From NCBI GenBank assembly GCA_002483145.1, contig DLHJ01000019.1, positions 124,001 to 188,000 of the forward strand: DNA of 64,000 bases. Direction: 5' to 3'. The translations under genes were made by a program, and so were the position numbers. The notes under the pieces are model-generated. The model was not told the origin of the DNA, searched no databases, and saw nothing but the letters and a program-made list of their open reading frames with translations. Source of the DNA: Cellvibrio sp. UBA7671. GTDB taxonomy: Bacteria > Pseudomonadota > Gammaproteobacteria > Pseudomonadales > Cellvibrionaceae. Of this stretch, positions 33,488-45,761 are shown in pieces; the stretch's first letter is position 1, and every line of letters starts with the position of its first letter.

Positions 33488-33537
33488 TTGACAACGTTGT
33501 CCTGCGGGGATAGTGTTGGCTCATCGACAACGTTGTC
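33488..33537 (+). promoter_or_regulatory. TonB-receptor promoter with two LacI-type operators
   Basis: A TTGACA -35 (33488-33493) is followed after 17 bases by a weak -10 (TAGTGT, 33511-33516). Palindrome GACAACGTTGTC occurs at 33490-33501, overlapping the -35, and again at 33526-33537, just downstream of the start point, 36 bases centre to centre. The same palindrome lies in the nagK promoter. The LacI-family regulator at 44.7-45.8 kb is the likely ligand-controlled repressor. Confidence 0.75.
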
Positions 33538-33610
33538 TTGTGTCCCCAGTTGTTGAAAAGTTAGTTCATTATTAAATACACACAAATTGCCAAGTCACGG
33601 GAGAATAACC

Positions 33611-36319
33611 ATGCGTAACAAGTTAAGTGATGCGATCAAACTGGCCAATAAGAGTGCACTGATGCTCGGTTCAGTAGCAGCTGTCGCCATGATGGGTTTT
33701 GTTGGTACTGCACATGCACAAGATGCAGGCGCAGAGCCAGAAGAAGTGTTGGTAACCGGTATTCGTGGTGCATTGAAAAATGCAGTTGATATCAAACGTA
33801 ACTCTACCGCTGTTGTAGATGCTGTTTCAGCTGAAGATGTGGGCAAGTTCCCTGATTCTGACATAGGCGAGTCACTTGGCCGCGTCCCAGGTGTAACTGT
33901 TGGCCGTGCATTTGGCCAAGGTGCATCAGTATCTATTCGTGGTGCCGCACCACAAATGACGTTGACCCAATTAAATGGTCAGAACGTTGCTTCTACTGGT
34001 TGGTATGATCAACAAGCTATCGATCGTAGCTTCAACTACTCATTGCTTCCATCACAATTGGTGGATGGCATGGAAGTTTACAAATCATCGCGAGCTGATC
34101 TTAATGAAGGGGGCATCGGTGGTACCGTTGTCGTTAAAACTCGCAAACCATTGGATATGGAGGCCAACACTGTCTATGTGGGTGCTAAGGCACGCACTGG
34201 CACTATTAGCGATGAAATCTCTCCAGAAGTATCTGGTTTGTATAGCTGGAAAAATGATTCAGAATCTTTTGGTATTTTGGTTGCTGGAGCAACTGAAGAA
34301 TTCGACTACGTACGTCGTGGTACCGAAGCAGATTACCGTTGGTGGGATGACGTTTCTCCAACCACTTTCATCCAGGAGCGTGAACGTACCGCATTGGATG
34401 TAACTACACAGTGGGCTCCCACAGACGAATTGACCTTTGGATTGCACTATTTGTCTTTGGATCTCAAGGCAAACAATACTAATACCAGTACTTATATTTT
34501 TTCTGGTTTGGATCAGTCTGCTGCTAACTACACTTGCTCGGAAAAAAATGCGGCTGGTGTATGTACAGTGAGTACGACCAAAAAACCTGTTCGCGGTAAC
34601 TTAACTGCTGGTTGGGCGAGTGGCGCATTGGGAACCGAGACCTTCAACCAAACTTGGGGTCGTGTTGCGAGCATGGACTCTGAAACCTTTGATTTGAATG
34701 CTGAATACGCTGCTGATTCATTCAAAGTAACCGCTAGCGCAGGTAGTACCAAAGCTGGTGGCGGTACTGACTTAACGACCAATTTTTCGCACTTTGCTAG
34801 CCTGGGTGACTACAACATGGCGTTGTGGGCAGGTAGCATCGATGCCTCCGGTAAGAAAATTAAGATCAATGCTACATCTGATCTGAACATGACTTTGGCC
34901 AACTACCGTGACAAATCTGCTGCAGAAGCCTGGGCTGTAAAAAGAGGTCCAAACTCAGACGAAGAGAGCTATGCACAAGTTGACTTCGAATTTGATCTGG
35001 GCCTTGGTGCCATCAAGTCGTTCAAAACCGGTGTCCGTACTACCGACCACGATGTAGAGAAATCTTCTGATGCGGCGGTGTTTGGTAATGCAACTCCTCA
35101 AACTCTAAACGATACTTCTATGTTCTATCGCGGCACCTTTGAAGTGGGTTCACATGGTTTCAAAGCGCCAAAACCTGTACTGGGTGCAATGGTTAAAGCA
35201 ACCTTGGCAGATGTAACTGGCTGGAAAGAAGAGCGTGCTGGCTACGCTGCGCTGAATGAACAAAATGATGCGCTGTACGGTATGTTTACTTTTGAAGCTG
35301 ATGCCGTTAAAGGTGACTTTGGATTGCGTTATATCAGCAGTGATATAACTGGTACGTCATATGCGTTGGATGGTACTCCGCTGGCTGCTGGCGATCTAGG
35401 TCAAAATCTCTATTACAGCACCAACAAAACATCTGTTGGTGAAGATTATGATGATGTGTTGCCAAGCTTGAACGTAACCTTTGATCTGACTGATGACTTG
35501 GTGTTGCGTACTACCGCTTCACAGGCAATCAGCCGTGCAAATTACAACGATATGTTCACCAATGCGAGCCAAACTGGTTATCAGGATGGCATTCCAGGTA
35601 ACGAACGTCTGACCACAGGTAATGTTGGTTTAAAACCAATGAAAGCTTCTCAGGCGGATCTTGGTGTGGAGTACTACTACGGTGACGGTAACATGTTGTC
35701 TGCGACTTATTTCGTTAAGTCAATCAATAACTTTGTTACTAGTGATATTGAAATCAATAGATCTGTTGGTTTGGTGAGTCCTGATAGTAAAGTGGACAAC
35801 TGGGAAGTAGTTACCCTTAAGAACTCTGGTGGCGGTGAAATTGATGGTATAGAGCTGCAGTTGACCCATGCGTTTGATAATGGCTTCGGTATGGCTGCAA
35901 GCTACACTTACGTAAATGCTAATGCGCCACTGGAAAGTTATACGGATCGTCTTGGCGTATTCACTGAATCTTCTAAAGACAGTGTGAACTTGGTTGGTTA
36001 CTGGGAAAACGATGTGTACTCGGCGCGTGCTGCTTATAACTGGCGTTCAGAGTATATGATTCGTGAAACTGGTTACTATGGCAACCGTATGCATGATGAC
36101 TTCGGTTCACTGGATTTGAGCTTGGGCTGGAATGTATCTGATAGCATCAGTGTGAGTTTTGAGGCTACCAACATTCTTGAAGAAGATGATGTTCAGTATG
36201 GTGGAGCCGAATTTTGGGCCGCAGATTCTGGCACCAAGCGCCCGCTGTTGGAAGGCTTCCCGGCTTGGTCATTTGAAGGTGAAGCAACTTATATGTTGGG
36301 TGTAAGCTTCAAGCTATAA
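33611..36319 (+). CDS. TonB-dependent receptor, probably for GlcNAc or chitooligosaccharides
   Basis: 902 residues from the ATG at 33611 (GGGAGAATAACC upstream). Long signal peptide (to about residue 37, GTAHA-QD), TonB box EEVLVTG, then a plug domain (SIGESLGRVPGVTVGR-like segment with VSIRGAAPQ and the GGIGGTVVVKTRKP strand) and a 22-strand barrel (about 180-902). It belongs to the carbohydrate-type TonB receptors of Caulobacter, Xanthomonas and Cellvibrio. Shared operators with the nag operon indicate that it takes GlcNAc-containing sugars across the outer membrane. Energy comes from TonB-ExbB-ExbD, encoded elsewhere. A perfect terminator ends it. Confidence 0.9.
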   Translation: MRNKLSDAIKLANKSALMLGSVAAVAMMGFVGTAHAQDAGAEPEEVLVTGIRGALKNAVDIKRNSTAVVDAVSAEDVGKFPDSDIGESLGRVPGVTVGRAFGQGASVSIRGAAPQMTLTQLNGQNVASTGWYDQQAIDRSFNYSLLPSQLVDGMEVYKSSRADLNEGGIGGTVVVKTRKPLDMEANTVYVGAKARTGTISDEISPEVSGLYSWKNDSESFGILVAGATEEFDYVRRGTEADYRWWDDVSPTTFIQERERTALDVTTQWAPTDELTFGLHYLSLDLKANNTNTSTYIFSGLDQSAANYTCSEKNAAGVCTVSTTKKPVRGNLTAGWASGALGTETFNQTWGRVASMDSETFDLNAEYAADSFKVTASAGSTKAGGGTDLTTNFSHFASLGDYNMALWAGSIDASGKKIKINATSDLNMTLANYRDKSAAEAWAVKRGPNSDEESYAQVDFEFDLGLGAIKSFKTGVRTTDHDVEKSSDAAVFGNATPQTLNDTSMFYRGTFEVGSHGFKAPKPVLGAMVKATLADVTGWKEERAGYAALNEQNDALYGMFTFEADAVKGDFGLRYISSDITGTSYALDGTPLAAGDLGQNLYYSTNKTSVGEDYDDVLPSLNVTFDLTDDLVLRTTASQAISRANYNDMFTNASQTGYQDGIPGNERLTTGNVGLKPMKASQADLGVEYYYGDGNMLSATYFVKSINNFVTSDIEINRSVGLVSPDSKVDNWEVVTLKNSGGGEIDGIELQLTHAFDNGFGMAASYTYVNANAPLESYTDRLGVFTESSKDSVNLVGYWENDVYSARAAYNWRSEYMIRETGYYGNRMHDDFGSLDLSLGWNVSDSISVSFEATNILEEDDVQYGGAEFWAADSGTKRPLLEGFPAWSFEGEATYMLGVSFKL

Positions 36320-36341: not shown

Positions 36342-36371
36342 AAAAAAGCCCAGCTTAAGCTGGGCTTTTTT
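36342..36371 (+). terminator. Perfect palindromic terminator after the TonB receptor gene
   Basis: A 15-bp arm (AAAAAAGCCCAGCTT, 36342-36356) is immediately followed by its full complement (36357-36371), then GTTT. It lies between the receptor and halogenase genes, which are 94 nt apart. Confidence 0.9.
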
Positions 36372-36413: not shown

Positions 36414-37937
36414 ATGAAAATTAAACGCGTGGCAATTGTGGGTGGTGGCACTGCGGGTTGGCTGGCGGCGAATCACCTGGGGGTGGAACTTAGTCGCGAC
36501 CCTGAAATTGAAATCACCCTGATTGAATCAAAAGATATTCCTATCATCGGCGTAGGTGAGGGGACGGTTCCGCAAATCAAAGCGACCTTGAAGCGCTTCG
36601 GCATAGCGGAAATCGATTTGTTATCCACTTGCGATGCAACTTTTAAGCAGGGAATTAAATTTGCACATTGGATGGATGCGCAAAAGCATGGCGCCGATAA
36701 TTTTTATTATCATCCTTTCAGCTCACCTTATCCCTCGGGTTTTGATGTCACTAATTACTGGCTAAATAATAAATCAGCATTTGAGTTTTCAAAGCTATCC
36801 GAGATTTATTCGGTAGCTGAAATGAATCGCTCCCCCAAACAAAAGTCATCGCCACCTTATATGGGCTTGGTGGATTATGCCTATCATTTCAACGCGCTTA
36901 AATTTGCGGATTTATTAGCTAAAAACGCGCGTGAAAAATTTGCCGTCAAACATATATTTGAAACTATTTCCCAAGTTTTGCTCAATGCAGATGGCAGCAT
37001 TAAAGGATTTGTTTATGCATCTGGTAGCGAAGAAGAATTTGATTTTTTTATCGATTGCACCGGATTTTCATCGCTATTGATTGGTGAAACATTAGGTGTA
37101 CCTTTCCTGGATAAATCGGCGCAGATTTTAACTGATACGGCGCTTGCTATTCAGGAGCCTATCGCCGAGAGCAATGAAATTCTGCCTTATACATTAGCAA
37201 CCGCACACAAAGCGGGATGGATTTGGGATATCCCCTTGACTCATCGCAGAGGTGTGGGTTTTGTCTATTCATCCCGACATATGACAGAGAGCGAGGCTGT
37301 TGGAACTTTCTCAACCTTTTTCGGGCGAGACTTGGAAGATGCCAACCTTAGAAAAATACCTATGACAATTGGTTATCGGGAATCTTTTTGGAAAAAGAAT
37401 TGCGTCGCTTTGGGCCTGGCGCAGGGATTTGTAGAGCCGTTAGAGGCCACATCCATATTAGTCACTGATTTTGCTGCATTGCTGGTGGCCAGAAATTTTC
37501 CAAAGATGATAAATGATATTCCTATTGTGTCTGAGTACTGCAATAAAGCGGTGCGCTATACCTGGGAGCGGGTAATTGATTTTGTACAGCTACACTATTT
37601 GATTTCAGACCGCCGTGACTCGCAATTTTGGATTGATAACACTGAAAATTCAGTAATGTCTGATGTGCTGCGGGAAAGGCTTGAGTTATGGAAAATCGGC
37701 GTACCTAAAAAGACAGATTTTTTCAGTTCGTTTGATATTTTTGGTGTAGAAAACCACTTGTTTGTTCTCTACGGGATGGATTATCCAACAAGGCCTGGTG
37801 TGCTTGGTGCTAATGAAGAATCTAGATCAAAGGAACTGGTGCGTGCTGTCCAGGATAAATCATTGCAGATGGGTAATTCTTTGATGTCGCATCGTGCTTG
37901 GTTAAGTGAGCTAAAACAAGCGCTTGCGTCCCGCTAG
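36414..37937 (+). CDS. Flavin-dependent tryptophan halogenase family protein
   Basis: 507 residues. The FAD-binding loop GGGTAGW is at the N-terminus, with IGVGEGTVP next. The catalytic Lys of PrnA/RebH-type enzymes is present (K78 in ATFKQGIKF), as are the Glu of FVEPLEATS (about E344) and the halogenase motif WIWDIP (about W269-P274). All parts needed to make hypohalous acid appear intact, but no substrate can be read out. Homologues recur next to TonB receptors for sugars in Proteobacteria with no known product. Start at the second of two ATGs (36411, 36414). Transcribed after the receptor terminator, with DUF6445 52 nt downstream. Confidence 0.88.
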   Translation: MKIKRVAIVGGGTAGWLAANHLGVELSRDPEIEITLIESKDIPIIGVGEGTVPQIKATLKRFGIAEIDLLSTCDATFKQGIKFAHWMDAQKHGADNFYYHPFSSPYPSGFDVTNYWLNNKSAFEFSKLSEIYSVAEMNRSPKQKSSPPYMGLVDYAYHFNALKFADLLAKNAREKFAVKHIFETISQVLLNADGSIKGFVYASGSEEEFDFFIDCTGFSSLLIGETLGVPFLDKSAQILTDTALAIQEPIAESNEILPYTLATAHKAGWIWDIPLTHRRGVGFVYSSRHMTESEAVGTFSTFFGRDLEDANLRKIPMTIGYRESFWKKNCVALGLAQGFVEPLEATSILVTDFAALLVARNFPKMINDIPIVSEYCNKAVRYTWERVIDFVQLHYLISDRRDSQFWIDNTENSVMSDVLRERLELWKIGVPKKTDFFSSFDIFGVENHLFVLYGMDYPTRPGVLGANEESRSKELVRAVQDKSLQMGNSLMSHRAWLSELKQALASR

Positions 37938-38000
37938 TACTTGTCGGTACCAGTTAATTAAATGATGTGAATTGGTTGAACCAAATTAGTGAGACCGCTA

Positions 38001-38705
38001 ATGATGATTAATGAAAGCCTGACTATGCAGACACTGTCTGTGGGCAATGAAAAAAACAAAGTCATTTATTTTGATGATTTTTTAGTGGAGCCGTCACGGC
38101 TTGTTGAATTTGCCAGTGGCGCGGTCTTTTCACCTTATGCCGCAGCGGTACAGCGCAAAGGGTATCCCGGTGTGCGAACTCCGGCGCCCGCTGATTTTGC
38201 CAATCAGTTTAAAAACATGGTTGGTGAAATAATAAAGAGTGAATTTGGCATTCCGGCTGAAACTCAAGTAACTGCGCTACAAAATGCCCTGTGTTTGATG
38301 ACTGTACCCGAGATGGAACTGGGGCCACTTCAGCGGATTCCCCATTTTGATGCAAGTAATCCTTATTTTTTTGCCACGCTGCTTTATCTTTGCGGTGAAG
38401 GACATGGAGGAACAGGATTTTATCGACACAACAGTACGGGCTATGAATCTATTACGCCTGAACGATGCGATCCCTATCTCGATGTTTCCTATGAAGAGCT
38501 GAATAGAAAAAAACCTGAGCGCCGTTATTTTTCTGAATCAGATGAGTTTTTTACCAAGATAGGATTTATTCCTGCACAATTTAATCGCTTGGTTATTTAT
38601 CCTGGTTGCTTATTACATTCGGCCAATATTTTATCGAGTGTCAGTATTAATTCTGATCCAAAGACGGGCAGGTTAACGGCGAACAATTTTTTTAGTTTTG
38701 ATTAA
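38001..38705 (+). CDS. DUF6445 family protein, 2OG-Fe(II) oxygenase-like
   Basis: 234 residues from the ATG at 38001 (GTGAG upstream); a GTG at 37989 is possible. HxD at H115/D117 (IPHFD), a distal His at H206 (CLLHSAN), and Arg224 (GRLTANNFF) are placed as in prolyl-4-hydroxylase-like 2OG-Fe(II) enzymes, where they bind iron and 2-oxoglutarate. No signal peptide: cytoplasmic. Its gene follows the halogenase, a pairing recalled from other TonB-receptor sugar loci. It may hydroxylate a protein or small molecule; this is inference. Confidence 0.72.
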   Translation: MMINESLTMQTLSVGNEKNKVIYFDDFLVEPSRLVEFASGAVFSPYAAAVQRKGYPGVRTPAPADFANQFKNMVGEIIKSEFGIPAETQVTALQNALCLMTVPEMELGPLQRIPHFDASNPYFFATLLYLCGEGHGGTGFYRHNSTGYESITPERCDPYLDVSYEELNRKKPERRYFSESDEFFTKIGFIPAQFNRLVIYPGCLLHSANILSSVSINSDPKTGRLTANNFFSFD

Positions 38706-38934
38706 ACGTGACTGCAGCATTAATTGCCTAATGAGTTTTTCATTGGTGAATGCGTTGTGTAATCTCCAAAAAATGCGTTGTGAATATTGTTAGTCTGGTT
38801 CAATAGCTGCTGTATTTTGCATGCTGCATTATGGGCGGCTGCGCCCCATTCCCCCCATTTAACTCATCTGCCGCGTTCTATTTCCCTGTATTTTAAAGGT
38901 TTTCCTTTTGACTATAAAAAAGTCAAAATTTTCT

Positions 38935-38963
38935 TTGACAACGTTGTCTGGTCGGCGTAATCT
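38935..38963 (+). promoter_or_regulatory. nag operon promoter with a LacI-type operator over the -35
   Basis: TTGACA (38935-38940), 17-base spacer, TAATCT (38958-38963). GACAACGTTGTC at 38937-38948 covers the -35 and is identical to the two sites before the TonB receptor. Same geometry in both promoters, so binding would block RNA polymerase. Confidence 0.75.
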
Positions 38964-39060
38964 AATCCTGTCCGATGATGACATCTGGGTCTGATAACTC
39001 TCCTTATTAGGCTCAGTATCATGGGGCATGAGTTCTCTAGAGCTGTAGTAGTGGTCTTGT

Positions 39061-39092
39061 GGTTAGTGTCCTGCGGGGCACTAACCTTTTTT
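39061..39092 (+). terminator. Terminator hairpin within the nag operon leader
   Basis: GGTTAGTGTCC pairs with GGGCACTAACC (one G-T wobble; 39061-39086) and T6 follows. It lies about 100 bases after the nag promoter and 107 bases before nagK, so it would stop most leader transcripts unless bypassed. No gene lies between promoter and hairpin. Confidence 0.7.
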
Positions 39093-39198
39093 AACTGTCT
39101 GTTATGATCGCAAGCCAATTGGGAACATTCGAATTTTTAAGTATCCGGCGCTGCATCAGTTAGGCCGGGTATTTGCTCTAAAAATAAAGAGGTAGATC

Positions 39199-40125
39199 AT
39201 GGCAAAGATGCCACTCGGCGAACAAACCTTGTATATAGGGATTGATGGCGGCGGTACTAAATGTCGCGCCAGTATCATGACCGCAGATTTACAGGTGCTG
39301 GGTACTGGTGTCGGTGGTCCTGCTAACCCTTTCCAAGGCGTACAACAAGCCAAAGATTCTATTCGCACTGCTGCCGAGCTGGCATTGATTGATGCTGGTT
39401 TACCTCCTTCAGCAATGACTGAACTAATTGCTGGCGCTGGCCTTGCCGGTGTCAATGTTCCAAGTCTTTACGAAGTGATGTCGGCTTGGGAGCACCCTTT
39501 CAAAGAAATGCATCTCACCACTGATCTTCATATTGCCTGCCTCGGCGCCCACAACCGCGATGAAGGTGCGGTGATGATTTGTGGCACGGGTTCCTGTGGC
39601 TATTCTTATGTAGGTGATAAATCGCTCTTTATCGGCGGTCATGGTTTCCCCATTGGCGACAAAGGCAGTGGTGCCTGGATGGGATTAGAGGCAATTCAAG
39701 CGATTTTGTTGGCCTCTGATGACTTGGGACCAAAGACCAGTTTGAGCGAATCTATTGGTGAATTCCTGCAAGCATCCGGTGTGATGATCGTAGACCGTAT
39801 GTTTGGTGCCAAGCAGGGCGACTACGCCAAATTTGCTATTTTTGTGGTGGATGCAGCCGATGCCGGCGATGCTGTTGCAGTCAGTATCGCAAAAGAAGGA
39901 GCTGCCTACATGAGTGCAGTCGCGCGCAAGTTATGGGCGACTCAACCTGGCCGCATGTCAATTATCGGTGGTCTTGCTCCGCGTCTGATTCCCTGGATGG
40001 AACAGGATATGGCCAACAATCTTTCCCCCGCTTTATACCAACCGGAATTTGGCGCCGTGTATTTCGCCAAACAGCGTTTCAAGCTAGCCAATAATAACCA
40101 GAGTGTTTTAACCACTGCCATCTAA
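39199..40125 (+). CDS. nagK: N-acetylglucosamine kinase, BadF/BadG family
   Basis: 308 residues. IGIDGGGTKCRASI is the phosphate-1 loop of the ASKHA fold; GTGSCGYSY and IGDKGSGAWMG are the phosphate-2/adenosine region. The family is BcrAD/BadFG ATPase-like, which includes the GlcNAc kinase of Shewanella and eukaryotes and is unrelated to E. coli NagK (ROK). It phosphorylates incoming GlcNAc to GlcNAc-6-P. Good ribosome site (AGAGGTAG). First gene of nagK-nagP-nagX-nagA-nagB. Confidence 0.9.
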   Translation: MAKMPLGEQTLYIGIDGGGTKCRASIMTADLQVLGTGVGGPANPFQGVQQAKDSIRTAAELALIDAGLPPSAMTELIAGAGLAGVNVPSLYEVMSAWEHPFKEMHLTTDLHIACLGAHNRDEGAVMICGTGSCGYSYVGDKSLFIGGHGFPIGDKGSGAWMGLEAIQAILLASDDLGPKTSLSESIGEFLQASGVMIVDRMFGAKQGDYAKFAIFVVDAADAGDAVAVSIAKEGAAYMSAVARKLWATQPGRMSIIGGLAPRLIPWMEQDMANNLSPALYQPEFGAVYFAKQRFKLANNNQSVLTTAI

Positions 40126-40140
40126 CGCGAGAATTTGACC

Positions 40141-41445
40141 ATGAGTAACGACGCTATTGCTGTCCCGGCACCGGGCGCAAATTCAAAGAGTTCATTTCTT
40201 CCTTTGGCAATGATTGCCGGGATGTTTTTTATTTTCGGATTTGTCACCTGGCTTAATGGCTCGTTGATGCCTTATTTGGAAGTGGTTTTGGCGTTAACCC
40301 CATTTCAAGCTTCATTTATTCTGTTTTCTTTTTATATTGCGGTAACGGTTTTTTCGCTGCCATCCTCCTGGATAATTCGTAAAGTCGGTTACAAGAATGG
40401 TATGGCAATTGGCCTGGCTACCATGGCTTCAGCTGCACTGATTTATATCCCTGCTGCAAAAACTCACTGGTTCGGTATGTTTTTGATTGGGCAGTTCATG
40501 ATGGGTGCCGGACAAACGCTGGTGCAAACAGCAGTGAATCCTTACGTAGTAAAAATGGGGCCTGAAGAGTCTGCGGCGCGCCGTATCAGCATCATGGGTA
40601 TTCTCAATAAATCGGCGGGCATTGTTGCACCTATTGTATTTACTGCGTTGATTTTGGGGGGGATGACTGGGCACCCAACGACAACACCAACGCCCGAAGA
40701 AATTGAGCAGATGGCAAGTAATTTGGTATTGCCGTACATCTACATGGCCTTAGTGATTGGTGCTGTGGCATTTTTGGTAAAATTTTCTTCGTTACCTGAA
40801 TTGGAATCTGAAGACGATAGTTCAGAAAAATTACCGTTGCGTGGTGCGCTGCAATTTCCAAATCTGGTATTGGGCGTGATGGCGTTATTTCTCTATGTTG
40901 GTGTAGAAGTAATTGCTGGTGATACGATTGGCGCTTACGGCCGTAGCATCGGGTTTAGCAATTTCTCTATCCTTACGTCAATCACTATGACCTGTATGGT
41001 GATTGGTTACATACTGGGTATTTTATTAATTCCGCGTGTTATTTCTCAGCAAAATATGTTGCTGGTGTCTGCTGCGCTTGGTGTATTTATCAGCCTGTGT
41101 ATTGTATTCGGCAGCAACGAATCTACTTCTATTTCTTCACTGTTTGCCTTTCTCGGCGCGCCTGCAATCCCTAACACTATTTTGTGTATCGCATTACTGG
41201 GTTTGGCGAATGCCATCGTATGGCCGGCAATTTGGCCTTTGGCATTAAGCGGTTTGGGTAAATACACCGCAACGGGTTCTGCGTTGCTGATTATGGCAAT
41301 TGCGGGTGGTGCGGTTGTACCTGTGATTATGGGCGCATTATCAACGGTTATTGACCGCCAAACGGCTTATATTGTGATGACACCCTGCTATTTGTTTATC
41401 CTCTTTTATGCAGCTAAAGGATACAAACTGCGTAGTTGGAAATAA
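40141..41445 (+). CDS. nagP: N-acetylglucosamine MFS transporter
   Basis: 434 residues from the ATG at 40141, six codons past an alternative at 40135. Twelve membrane helices; FFIFGFVTWLNGSLMPYLE in the first helix pair and GQFMMGAGQTLVQTAVNPYVV are signatures of the FucP/NagP (FHS) sugar:proton symporters. It moves GlcNAc from periplasm to cytoplasm unphosphorylated, which is why nagK is needed. It starts 15 nt after nagK. Confidence 0.92.
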   Translation: MSNDAIAVPAPGANSKSSFLPLAMIAGMFFIFGFVTWLNGSLMPYLEVVLALTPFQASFILFSFYIAVTVFSLPSSWIIRKVGYKNGMAIGLATMASAALIYIPAAKTHWFGMFLIGQFMMGAGQTLVQTAVNPYVVKMGPEESAARRISIMGILNKSAGIVAPIVFTALILGGMTGHPTTTPTPEEIEQMASNLVLPYIYMALVIGAVAFLVKFSSLPELESEDDSSEKLPLRGALQFPNLVLGVMALFLYVGVEVIAGDTIGAYGRSIGFSNFSILTSITMTCMVIGYILGILLIPRVISQQNMLLVSAALGVFISLCIVFGSNESTSISSLFAFLGAPAIPNTILCIALLGLANAIVWPAIWPLALSGLGKYTATGSALLIMAIAGGAVVPVIMGALSTVIDRQTAYIVMTPCYLFILFYAAKGYKLRSWK

Positions 41446-41490: not shown

Positions 41491-42579
41491 ATGGTCAAGC
41501 AGCGTTTTCTAGCGTTGGATGTAATGCGTGGTTTGACCCTCGCGTTGATGATTCTGGTAAACACTCCCGGTTCCTGGGAGTTTGTTTACGCGCCCTTGCT
41601 GCATGCAAGTTGGCATGGTGCGACGCCCACCGATTTTGTATTTCCTTTCTTTATGTTCATCGTTGGCTCGGCAATGTATTTTGCTGTGCGTGGCTTGAAC
41701 ACACTCGGTTTTGCTGCAAAATCCAAAAAAATCCTGCGCCGTGTTGCGCTGCTGTTTTTAATAGGTGTGCTGCTCGCTGCATACCCGTTTACCGAAAGCC
41801 TTGAGCAATGGCGAGTGATGGGCGTATTGCAACGCATCGCTGTTGCCTACGGTTTTGCTGCATTTATTATTTTGTATTTTGGTTTTACCGGGCGAGTCGT
41901 TATTAGCGCAATTTTATTGGTCGGGTACTGGGGTTTGTTAAACTTATCCGCCGACCCATACAGTCTTGAGCACAACATCGTGCGTCAATTTGATTTGAGT
42001 GTGTTGGGTGCAAGCCACCTGTGGCAGGGAAAAGGTATGCCCTTTGACCCAGAGGGTATCCTGAGTACCTTTCCATCGATAGTGAATGTGATTATCGGTT
42101 TTGAAGCCACACGGGTATTACTCGCGAGTGAAGACAAAGAAAAAGCACTGAGTAAATTGTTTGTATCTGCACTGGCATTGATTGGTTTGGCGTTATTGTG
42201 GAATACCGTTTTCCCGATCAATAAATCCTTGTGGACCAGCCCATTTGTATTGCTGACCTGTGGTGTTGCGATTTTGATGCTGATTTTATTGGTGAAGCTT
42301 GAGCAGTCGGCGGCAACCAACGCCATCAAACCTGTGTATCACTTCTTTGAAATTATCGGAAAGAATCCACTCTTTATTTATGTGCTGTCGGGTGTGTTGG
42401 CAACTACTATGTATTTAATACCGATTGGCAATGAATCACTCTACACCGCACTTTATGCGGCCTTCCGCAGTGTGACTGACCCTTATTTTGCATCGCTAGT
42501 GTTTGCAATGTTGCAAGTGGCGATTTTGTGGCTTGTTGCCTGGGTATTGCACAAACGCAATATTATTATCAGTTTGTAA
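41491..42579 (+). CDS. nagX: NagX-type membrane protein (DUF5009, heparan-glucosaminide acetyltransferase-like)
   Basis: 362 residues with about ten membrane helices. RFLALDVMRGLTLALMILVNTPG and TDFVFPFFMFIVGSAMYFA near the N-terminus, and RVMGVLQRIAVAYG, are family signatures shared with lysosomal HGSNAT. In nag operons of Shewanella and Xanthomonas the gene is called nagX, and its exact role is not settled; acetyl transfer across the membrane or transport have been suggested. 45 nt after nagP. Confidence 0.88.
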   Translation: MVKQRFLALDVMRGLTLALMILVNTPGSWEFVYAPLLHASWHGATPTDFVFPFFMFIVGSAMYFAVRGLNTLGFAAKSKKILRRVALLFLIGVLLAAYPFTESLEQWRVMGVLQRIAVAYGFAAFIILYFGFTGRVVISAILLVGYWGLLNLSADPYSLEHNIVRQFDLSVLGASHLWQGKGMPFDPEGILSTFPSIVNVIIGFEATRVLLASEDKEKALSKLFVSALALIGLALLWNTVFPINKSLWTSPFVLLTCGVAILMLILLVKLEQSAATNAIKPVYHFFEIIGKNPLFIYVLSGVLATTMYLIPIGNESLYTALYAAFRSVTDPYFASLVFAMLQVAILWLVAWVLHKRNIIISL

Positions 42580-42625
42580 CGTTTGTCGCTGTCAGTGCGG
42601 CGAGCGATTTTTGACAGGTGTTGTT

Positions 42626-43783
42626 ATGAAACAGGCGTTAGTGGGCGCGCGCATTTTTACCGGTGAAGACTTCCTGGAAAATTATGCGGTAGTGGTCGCA
42701 GGCGAACAGATTGCAGCGCTGGTTCCCGTCGCTGAACTGGATGAATCTATTCCGCAAATTTTATTGGACGGCGGTGTGATTGCGCCGGGCTTTATCGATT
42801 TACAAGTCAATGGCGGTGGCGGTGCGTTTTTTACTAACGATACCAGCGTCAGCGCAATCGCGACCATGTTGAATGGTCATCGCCCTACAGGCACCACCTC
42901 GTTATTACCTACTTTGATTAGCGATACCCGTGAAGTACACCAGGCTGGTGTTAAAGCCGTTGCCGATGCTGTTGCCGCCGGAATGAAAGGTGTGCTCGGA
43001 GTTCACGTTGAAGGTCCGTTTTTTGATATGGCGCGACGCGGTGCGCACAACGAACGCTACATTCGCGAAATGGAACAGGCTGATATCGATTGGTTAGTTG
43101 CCTCGGTAAAAGGCCAGCACGATTTTAAAGTCATGCTCACGCTTGCGCCCGAACATGCGGCGCCTGGTCAAATTAAACAATTAACCTCAGCTGGTGTAGT
43201 TGTCTGTGCTGGTCATACCGATGCGCATTACGAATCGGTAGTGAGTGCACTCAAAGAAGGCCTCTCCGGATTTACCCATTTATACAATGCGATGCGCCCA
43301 ACTACTGGCCGCGAGCCAGGCGTTGTGGGAGCTGCACTGGAAGATGCAAACAGTTGGTGCGGAATTATTATCGATACCTACCACGTGCATGCCGCTTCTG
43401 CACGTATTGCTTGCGCCGCAAAACCCAAAGGCAAAATGTACTTAGTGACGGATGCTATGTCGACTGTCGGCTCGCCCGAAAAATCTTTCCAGATTTACGG
43501 CGAAACTATTTATGAAAAAGATGGCTGTTTGGTAAACGCAGAAGGGCGTTTGGCAGGCAGTGCAATCGGCATGATTGACGCAGTGCGCTTGAATACCGAA
43601 TGGGTTGGCATGGAGTTGAGTGAGAGCTTGCGTATGGCGGCGCTATACCCTGCCGAATTTATGCAGGTGGATAAGTATCTCGGTCGAATTCAATCAGGTT
43701 TCCGTGCGGATTTAGTGCATTTTACGGATGATTATCGTGTAACCCATACTTGGGTTGCCGGTGATTTTTTGCGGCATAGTTAG
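42626..43783 (+). CDS. nagA: N-acetylglucosamine-6-phosphate deacetylase
   Basis: 385 residues from the ATG at 42626; the open frame reaches back into nagX, but its extra residues are not plausible. Amidohydrolase fold: GFIDLQVNGGGG, HVEGPFF (metal Glu), GHTDAHYE and FTHLYNAMRP (metal His), and VTDAMSTVG (catalytic Asp). It converts GlcNAc-6-P to GlcN-6-P and acetate. 46 nt after nagX and 48 nt before nagB. Confidence 0.95.
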   Translation: MKQALVGARIFTGEDFLENYAVVVAGEQIAALVPVAELDESIPQILLDGGVIAPGFIDLQVNGGGGAFFTNDTSVSAIATMLNGHRPTGTTSLLPTLISDTREVHQAGVKAVADAVAAGMKGVLGVHVEGPFFDMARRGAHNERYIREMEQADIDWLVASVKGQHDFKVMLTLAPEHAAPGQIKQLTSAGVVVCAGHTDAHYESVVSALKEGLSGFTHLYNAMRPTTGREPGVVGAALEDANSWCGIIIDTYHVHAASARIACAAKPKGKMYLVTDAMSTVGSPEKSFQIYGETIYEKDGCLVNAEGRLAGSAIGMIDAVRLNTEWVGMELSESLRMAALYPAEFMQVDKYLGRIQSGFRADLVHFTDDYRVTHTWVAGDFLRHS

Positions 43784-43831: not shown

Positions 43832-44626
43832 ATGAAAGTTGTTATTTTGAAAGATGCTGCTGCAGTTGCTAAATACGGCGCGAACATTTTTATTAAACAA
43901 ATCAGCCGTAAACCTGATTCGGTAATGGGTTTGGCAACTGGCTCAACGCCCGTGGCGCTTTACAAAGAATTAATTGACGCTTACAAAAGTGGGCAGGTTT
44001 CATTTAAAAAAGTGAGCAGTTTTAACCTGGATGAATATTTGGGCTTGAACCCAACTCATCCGCAAAGTTATCGCTACTTTATGAATCAACAATTGTTCGA
44101 TCATATTGATATCGATAGAGCCTCTACCTTTGTTCCGCCGGGTGATGCAGAAGATCCATTTACTGCCTGCGCACTTTATGAAACTGCAATCAAACAAAAA
44201 GGCGGTATTGATATTCAATTATTGGGTATCGGGCGCAATGGCCATATAGGTTTTAACGAGCCGTCTTCATCCTTGATGTCGCGCACGCGCATCAAAACCC
44301 TTACCCGTGCCACCATTGATGATAACGCGCGTTTTTTTGGCCCCGATGAATACCAGCCGCATTTATCCATCACCATGGGTATAGGCACTATTCTCGAATC
44401 GAAAAAAGTCGTGTTGTTGGCAACAGGTGAAAACAAAGCTGAAGCAATTAAAGCTACTGTAGAAGGCCCACTCACAGCGGCATGTCCGGCCTCTGCGTTG
44501 CAGTTGCATGAGCAGGTAGTCTTGGTGATTGATGAAGCGGCTGCATCATTGTTATCGGATGTGGAGTTATACAAGCATATTGAAATCGAAAATCAGAAAT
44601 TGTTGGAGCGACTGGGTCGCGCGTGA
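43832..44626 (+). CDS. nagB: Glucosamine-6-phosphate deaminase
   Basis: 264 residues. [15 protein letters not shown] (phosphate loop), FNLDEYLG (catalytic Asp), and [13 protein letters not shown] with the catalytic His. The Asp of E. coli NDGH is Asn here, as in many homologues. [14 protein letters not shown] follows. It yields fructose-6-P and ammonia, completing GlcNAc catabolism. Strong ribosome site (CTGGAGTG). Last gene of the operon; a bidirectional terminator follows. Confidence 0.95.
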
Positions 44627-44708: not shown

Positions 44709-45761
44709 TCAACGTTTTGATGGAGCAGGGCAAGTGGAATCGCGCACAATTAATTGCGGATAAAAACCTTCGCTCTCTACATCGCGATGCGCGCGAATGG
44801 TATCAATCAACAATCCGGTGGCGCGCTCTGCGATGGTGGTGTTGGGTTGTTGCGCGGTGGTTAAATTTGGCCAGGCTTGGCGGGAGAAGGGGCTATCTTC
44901 AAAGCCGACAATGGATAATTGTTGCGGCACATCCACGCCTTGGATGCGCGCCGCAAACAAAGTACCAGCCGCGATTTCGTCGTTACAGGCGAACACCGCT
45001 GTTGGTTTTAAATTGGATGAGAGCAATTGGCGGGTGCGTTTTACCCCGGATTCAAACGAGTATTCACCGGGCAGGATTAATTTTTTATCGAGCGTAATTT
45101 TATTGGCTTTGAGTGCAGCCTTGTAACCTTCCAAACGTTCGCCGCTGGATTTATGCGCTTCTTCACCTCCTAAGAAGGCGATGGCTTTGTGGCCGAGGTC
45201 GATCAGGTATTGGGTAATTTTGTACGCGGCGGTGCGGTCATCGATAAAAATGCAGGGCCCTTTTTTATCTGGCGCCTGTGAGCCAGACAGGATGCGTACA
45301 AACGGTATTTTGCGTTTGCCCAGCGCCGATAATACTTCCGGCATTTCCGACATCGGCGGTGTCAACACCAGCCCGCCCACCTGGCTACGATCCACCATGT
45401 TGAGCACTTCATCAATAATGTCATCGGCCTTGGAGTTGCAGGGGTGGATAACCAACTCATAGCCCTGGCGACGGCATTCCCCCAGAATCCCCTTCTGCAT
45501 ATCGATCACATAGTTGCTGTTGGGGTTGTCGTAAATAAAACCAATCGATGAGGCTGCACCGCGCAGTAAGCGCGCCGATAAGTTGGGTTGGTAATTCAGC
45601 GCCTTGACTGCCTGCATTACCTTGTCTTGCAGCTCCTGGCCGACAGTTCCTTCTTTATTGATCACACGCGATACGGTCTTAAAGGAGACTCCGGCCAACT
45701 TGGCTACATCTTTAATCGTGGCTTTGGATTTGGGTGCGTGTTTATCGACACTGGTTTTCAT
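44709..45761 (-). CDS. nagR: LacI family transcriptional regulator, probable GlcNAc repressor
   Basis: 350 residues. The N-terminal LacI helix-turn-helix (KDVAKLAGVSFKTVSRVIN, about residues 17-35) and hinge helix (NLSARLLRG) are followed by a periplasmic-binding-protein-like effector domain. LacI proteins bind palindromes with a central CG, as in GACAACGTTGTC, found three times at nag-locus promoters. It lies at the end of the locus and is convergent with nagB. I found no such site before its own gene. The effector may be GlcNAc, GlcNAc-6-P or GlcN-6-P; inference. Confidence 0.85.
   Translation of the reverse strand: MKTSVDKHAPKSKATIKDVAKLAGVSFKTVSRVINKEGTVGQELQDKVMQAVKALNYQPNLSARLLRGAASSIGFIYDNPNSNYVIDMQKGILGECRRQGYELVIHPCNSKADDIIDEVLNMVDRSQVGGLVLTPPMSEMPEVLSALGKRKIPFVRILSGSQAPDKKGPCIFIDDRTAAYKITQYLIDLGHKAIAFLGGEEAHKSSGERLEGYKAALKANKITLDKKLILPGEYSFESGVKRTRQLLSSNLKPTAVFACNDEIAAGTLFAARIQGVDVPQQLSIVGFEDSPFSRQAWPNLTTAQQPNTTIAERATGLLIDTIRAHRDVESEGFYPQLIVRDSTCPAPSKR

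Follow-up and report, generated by a model that had tools for sequence, protein, structure and literature searches.

Halogenase genes in the genome of Cellvibrio sp. UBA7671 lie beside genes for TonB-dependent sugar receptors more often than chance would place them, and with genes for predicted oxygenases they make up a receptor-linked, uncharacterised module whose enzyme families are known. One copy is encoded in the window, as we call the whole 64,000-nucleotide stretch analysed here (assembly GCA_002483145.1, contig DLHJ01000019.1, positions 124,001 to 188,000), where a flavin halogenase and a DUF6445 protein stand next to a receptor of the N-acetylglucosamine (GlcNAc) uptake type. Among the possible explanations we favour, at a probability of about 0.37, a dedication of these enzymes to oxidative tailoring of the receptor or of a protein partner, which would be modified in the cytoplasm before export.

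Gene order and operators of the receptor locus

The receptor, halogenase and DUF6445 genes are co-directional, lying 91 and 51 bases apart, and 493 bases separate the DUF6445 gene from nagK, after which nagP, a nagX-like gene, nagA and nagB follow (Table 1); gaps in the operon are short except at the promoter regions. A reading of the window made beforehand from the letters alone (the sequence-only reading) had placed the enzyme pair between a sugar receptor and the nag genes, and the order TIGR01782 receptor, pair, nagK-P-X-A-B confirms it. The receptor gene starts with TTG, with an ATG 24 bases downstream, and its product falls in one clade of the receptor tree with nag-locus receptors of other bacteria. 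Expression of the halogenase may be lowered by the terminator-like hairpin that precedes its gene, and the true start of nagA is probably downstream of the listed one.

Table 1. Features of the receptor and nag genes, in positions of the window
Feature	Position	Strand	Basis
Operator-like palindrome GACAACGTTGTC, first of two 5' of receptor	33490..33501	none	Genome pattern count
Operator-like palindrome, second 5' of receptor	33526..33537	none	Genome pattern count
TonB-dependent receptor, TIGR01782, nag type	33587..36319	+	556.6 bits, cut-off 310
Terminator-like hairpin GCCCAGC-TTAA-GCTGGGC then T6, receptor/halogenase gap	36348..36365	+	By eye
Flavin-dependent halogenase-family protein	36414..37937	+	Pfam profile, motif alignment
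DUF6445 protein, predicted 2OG-Fe(II) oxygenase	37989..38705	+	Pfam profile, alignment, structure model
Operator-like palindrome 5' of nagK, overlapping a TTGACA -35-like hexamer	38937..38948	none	Genome pattern count
Conserved structured RNA leader or small RNA, terminator-like hairpin at its end	38960..39096	+	Folding, comparison
nagK, N-acetylglucosamine kinase	39199..40125	+	NCBIfam equivalog NF046058, 454 bits
nagP, N-acetylglucosamine transporter	40135..41445	+	NCBIfam equivalog NF046060, 701.7 bits
nagX-like membrane protein (HGSNAT_cat)	41491..42579	+	Pfam; name nagX from position and analogy
nagA, deacetylase	42503..43783	+	ORF list; named by eye from sequence
nagB, deaminase	43832..44626	+	ORF list; named by eye from sequence
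LacI-family repressor, presumed NagR, convergent	44709..45761	-	Pfam

The palindrome GACAACGTTGTC occurs 13 times in the host genome, and the reversed pattern once. Two copies lie 5' of the window receptor, one 5' of nagK and two 5' of another receptor (C1:331170), which precedes two halogenase genes. The remaining eight are found near genes for a GH18 chitinase with CBM5/12, a GH19 chitinase, a GH20 hexosaminidase, a chemotaxis receptor (MCP), an acetyl-CoA synthetase, a 337-aa protein without Pfam match and an amylase about 1 kb off, whose proximity may be incidental, as well as in a GH20/GH18 locus on contig C18 with four halogenase-like genes, one of them degenerate. From their placement the sites look like marks of a chitin/GlcNAc regulon, and the LacI-type protein of the window would bind them. 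All three receptor loci of this regulon carry halogenase-like genes. The claim that the enzyme pair belongs to a sugar regulon stands accordingly, with palindromes before both receptor and nagK that are common to chitinase and hexosaminidase genes. The window regulon resembles the nag regulon of Shewanella and its relatives, which comprises NagK, NagP, NagX, a LacI-type regulator, a receptor and a chemotaxis protein; it differs in that the window receptor operon carries the halogenase and DUF6445 genes, and the term 'halogenase' is absent from the available part of the Shewanella paper (PMC2996990).

The halogenase and the DUF6445 protein

The halogenase ORF is complete, starting with ATG and with a GTG one codon upstream (36411), and its product matches the Pfam profile Trp_halogenase (PF04820) with 413.9 bits (cut-off 21). 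Its motifs are GGGTAG (G10/G12/G15), K78, W269/W271/I273/P274 and PLE at 342-344 with E344; a complete flavin halogenase had been claimed from K78, WIWDIP from residue 269 and FVEPLEATS from residue 339, all of which we find at these positions. Judged by sequence, the window protein is a member of the flavin halogenase family with its catalytic motif set intact. It has the FAD motif, catalytic Lys, WxWxIP and Glu-bearing motif in common with RebH and PrnA. Unlike these it lies outside any natural-product cluster, and its local alignment with RebH (275 bits) ends at residue 430-431 of 507, beyond which lies what we take to be the part that binds free tryptophan. A sequence search of the PDB gave 9lu2 (417 bits, residues 3-499), 9ltb and 2pyx as the closest solved relatives, which places the protein near the unassigned alpha- and gammaproteobacterial halogenases such as BrvH (presumably PDB 6frl). 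BrvH has the same motifs and a second halogenase gene alongside, and its natural substrate was left unassigned; receptor linkage goes unmentioned in the portion of the BrvH paper available to us, where the words 'TonB' and 'receptor' are absent (PMC5945002).

The PF04820 profile returned 31 rows from the host genome, counted as 28 halogenase-like genes after omission of two pieces of one 449-aa protein (C3:185569) and of C18:359190. These genes bear on a reading in which proteins of the halogenase fold serve receptor expression as flavin-binding chaperones or redox sensors and have no role in halogenation. Three of the 28, each neighbouring intact ones within a receptor locus, have lost both K78 and E344, and 17 of 142 halogenase ORFs from other loci (not deduplicated) lack one or both residues, as such a role would allow; against it, 25 of the 28 and 125 of the 142 keep both, for which a pure scaffold would have no use, and we regard a non-catalytic function as improbable. 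The degenerate proteins (C15:230671-232155, C15:233653-235119 and C18:282231-283895), which share their receptor loci with intact halogenases, are possible heteromeric partners. The 25 intact host proteins form two subtypes, PLEA (7) and PLES (18), and in several loci with two halogenase genes each subtype is represented once (C14:67127/68650, C15:284196/285733 and C9:236410/239842), a pairing that hints at a division of labour.

The DUF6445 ORF is likewise complete and its product scores 229.3 bits with the Pfam profile (cut-off 24). The sequence-only reading had assigned it a full iron/2OG set at H115, D117, H206 and R224; counted from the GTG start, with an offset of 4, these are H119, D121, H210 and R228, and the HxD...H...R set is conserved in 84/84 aligned DUF6445 proteins. 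The sequence had no match in the PDB at E 1. An AlphaFold model (pLDDT 95.1) gave 35 Foldseek matches in the PDB with an E value no higher than 0.001, almost all of them 2OG oxygenases or uncharacterised proteins, along with one chain of an RNA-editing complex; the rows listed have 8-14% identity. The top match was HygX (4xcb, E 1.4e-4), which has the HxD...H...R set and the predicted fold in common with DUF6445, at a TM of only about 0.5. On the strength of the model the protein belongs to the double-stranded beta-helix fold of the 2OG-Fe(II) oxygenases and is a predicted enzyme. The family is rare, with three genes in the host genome and occurrence in 7/276 genomes of the class, and the term 'DUF6445' was not found in the open-licence literature searched.

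The FAD motif of the halogenase begins at residue 10 and the N-terminus of DUF6445 is not hydrophobic by eye, so that neither sequence has room for a signal peptide and both enzymes are taken as cytoplasmic. Such a location speaks against the idea that they detoxify or degrade aromatics arriving with the glycan, such as phenolic decorations or cuticle cross-links. Both families do have aromatics or small molecules as substrates, the loci function in the breakdown of polymers, and most of the proteins that Foldseek places near DUF6445 are oxygenases of small molecules; yet we recognised no aromatic catabolic genes nearby, and DUF6445 is kept in nag loci, where plant phenolics are not expected. 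Taken together, an action on co-imported aromatics appears to us a poor prospect.

Association with receptors in the host and in other genomes

The TIGR01782 profile returned 46 rows from the host genome, of which the 27 above the cut-off were used as receptors. Within 5 kb of one of these lie 24 of the 28 halogenase-like genes (P about 4e-24, the flanked receptors making up 7.1% of the genome), and counted by clusters 12/15 are near a receptor (P 6e-12). The linkage in this genome is real and exceeds chance. Seen from the receptors, 13/27 have a halogenase gene within 4 kb, and these are scattered across the host receptor tree; one unlinked halogenase gene stands at a contig start. Distances among the halogenases and among the receptors were weakly correlated in the host genome (Mantel r 0.17, with 27/2000 permutations as high), a correlation that is in keeping with co-evolution and does not prove contact.

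Genes for SapC-like (4), Cupin_8 (3) and DUF6445 (3) proteins are found in the same kind of loci of the host genome as the halogenases, one SapC-like gene adjoining a receptor without halogenase, and halogenase, DUF6445, SapC and Cupin_8 genes replace one another beside the receptors. A SapC-family protein (L104:9289-9996) and its relatives have a confident predicted fold (pLDDT 93.5); compared by structure, the model matched nothing in the PDB at E 0.001 and therefore gives no functional hint. The same four kinds of gene also appear in loci with GH5, GH81, GH95 and GH18 enzymes. The tie to GlcNAc that had been proposed for the pair cannot be upheld, since linked loci with GH5, GH81 and GH95 enzymes show that the module is not about this sugar; the common partner is the receptor.

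In a scan of other genomes, the best 80 of 228 DUF6445 relatives were kept as loci, of which 37 had receptor and halogenase, 19 a receptor only, 8 a halogenase only and 16 neither (62 of the 80, with the window, form set A2). The recurrence of the pair beside sugar receptors, put forward in the sequence-only reading, holds as far as linkage goes, with both partners in 37 and at least one in 64 of these best 80 of 228. A fixed halogenase/DUF6445 pair does not: halogenase is absent from 19/80 loci that do have a receptor, many nag loci of Burkholderiales have DUF6445 and receptor without it, SapC-like or a second halogenase replaces DUF6445 elsewhere, and many halogenases and receptors have no DUF6445 nearby. 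Two of the 16 loci with neither partner (L061 and L070) end near where relatives have the receptor, and the other 14 have different neighbours. DUF6445 genes that have neither partner in the stretch examined (L088, L091, L100, L110-L114, L117 and L121) indicate that the family works elsewhere too.

A receptor-first search of 61 genomes of the family, in which only the receptor sequence decided the choice of matches, gave 18 outside the host genome. Of the 12 closest nag-type receptors 11, and of all 18 receptors 14, had at least one gene for a halogenase, DUF6445 or SapC protein at a distance of up to 3 kb. One nag locus (L164) has operators, receptor, nagK, nagP and nagX and lacks halogenase, DUF6445 and SapC, so that the module is not needed for GlcNAc catabolism as such; the pair had been considered dispensable in this respect, and L164 agrees. 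A second sample comprised 106 receptors of six genomes (G336, G337, G340, G343, G010 and G126), not a random draw, since all six carry DUF6445; 34 of these receptors were linked, with a halogenase at each, and 72 unlinked. Receptors of G311, G307, G301, G122, G338, G339, G341 and G342 lie outside this sample, L085 and L122 lie in genomes also among its receptor listings, and L154 and L157 repeat genomes already included as L052 and L080. The receptor tree has mostly-linked and mostly-unlinked clades, common to several proteobacterial classes.

Possible roles of the module

If one conserved aromatic residue of the receptor were modified, that residue should track the enzymes. In the host genome no Trp, Tyr or His column differed by 0.5 between the 13 halogenase-linked and the 14 unlinked receptors. 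The best host column was 816 (numbering of the window receptor), with Ala in 12/13 linked and Ser in 10/14 unlinked receptors; Ala816 was present in 0/10 unlinked receptors of other loci, and in the second sample in 27/34 linked versus 28/72 unlinked ones (Fisher 1.4e-4). When 154 representatives were pooled, many columns were associated with linkage, as expected from clade structure, and the scan highlighted Ala816 and Trp819 in the motif AYNWR. A correlated-evolution test gave column 816 a likelihood ratio (LR) of 17.5, above all 44 random columns in a first run and at rank 12/573 in the full run; the optimiser was crude, and LR values are unreliable because columns without a frequency difference reached 41. 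Tracking of the module by Ala/Ser 816 keeps some, weak support after phylogeny. Trp819 was considered as a halogenation site, being present in 43/67 linked versus 19/87 unlinked receptors, but was rejected at an LR of 3.6 and rank 367/573; its association is explained by phylogeny. Among nag-type receptors, Trp139, Trp252 and Trp739 occur in 22/22 with halogenase and in 24, 23 and 23, respectively, of the 24 without (near four of which, L076, L077, L081 and L083, a halogenase gene assigned to another receptor lies at a distance of a few kb), and no conserved aromatic was lost along with the halogenase in these two groups.

Modification of the receptor is the reading that agrees best with the gene contexts; no target residue emerged from the columns compared. 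Tailoring of the receptor or a partner is preferred because the receptor is the neighbour shared across sugars, because it remains constant where the predicted oxygenase family varies (DUF6445, Cupin_8), and because we recognised in the loci no genes for making a precursor or for export, the neighbourhood tables showing no recognisable peptide synthetase, polyketide or exporter gene. The failure to find a tracking aromatic, the 16/80 DUF6445 loci that stand alone and the module-free L164 count against it, and no halogenase is known to us to act on a protein of the outer membrane. According to this proposal GlcNAc would relieve repression and turn on the receptor operon with its halogenase and DUF6445 genes, and both enzymes would act in the cytoplasm on the receptor precursor, or on its protein partner, ahead of export. 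The halogenase might halogenate an aromatic residue and DUF6445 hydroxylate another, and the modified receptor could gain in sugar binding, folding or resistance to damage. In its most specific form, namely that sugar TonB receptors of many Proteobacteria are both halogenated and hydroxylated by adjacently encoded cytoplasmic enzymes as a regulated finishing step, the proposal is doubtful.

The module could also make a small halogenated or hydroxylated compound, a signal, weapon or ligand derived from free indole or phenol, which the receptor would import or with which it would merely be co-regulated. Clade relatives brominate free indole in vitro, although the BrvH authors considered indole probably not the natural substrate, as far as the available portion of their paper goes (PMC5945002), and 28 halogenase-like genes in one genome are more than one modification per receptor would require. 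Since the loci lack recognised genes for making a precursor or exporting a product, and linkage extends to receptors of several sugars, we hold this synthesis to be unlikely.

Tailoring of receptors would bear on a wider question, as a great many bacterial halogenases still lack an assigned natural substrate and specific sugar receptors are now tied to them. DUF6445 can be named the predicted 2OG oxygenase of the module, and the question of the substrate becomes a test on one operon of a soil-type bacterium that is not a pathogen. Should the receptor be the target, the result would add a new type of modification of outer-membrane proteins and would supply biocatalysts for halogenating proteins; a finishing step of receptors, if true, would account for the orphan 'tryptophan halogenases' found in these bacteria. 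We found no description of a receptor-halogenase module in the open-licence literature searched, and a term search did not find 'halogenase' in PMC1790865, PMC4285296, PMC4052901, PMC7142613, PMC9007349 or PMC11909599. The suggestion that the system is undescribed holds within the open-access literature searched and for that scope only. Regulon databases may list similar gene neighbourhoods or co-occurrence.

Finally, the module might make a ribosomal peptide from a short precursor gene that had been overlooked. Halogenases and 2OG enzymes tailor such peptides in known systems (compare PMC12615548), and the unmatched SapC fold could bind peptides. The operon gaps of the window leave little space for a precursor, and no conserved small ORF was seen in them; the longest plus-strand gap ORFs encode 57 aa (38787-38960) and, inside the conserved RNA, 28 aa, and the latter has lost its start in L153 and is shifted in frame in L046. 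A peptide product, the precursor of which might be encoded elsewhere, is, in our estimation, very improbable.

The RNA itself, which lies between the operator and nagK, had no match in Rfam and was found in 3/61 genomes of the family searched. It has a fold z-score of -4.78, a run of 40 bases that is invariant among seven Cellvibrio-type loci and five both-sided pair changes in its stems, and by eye it is preceded by a promoter, TTGACA-17-TAATCT, that the operator overlaps.
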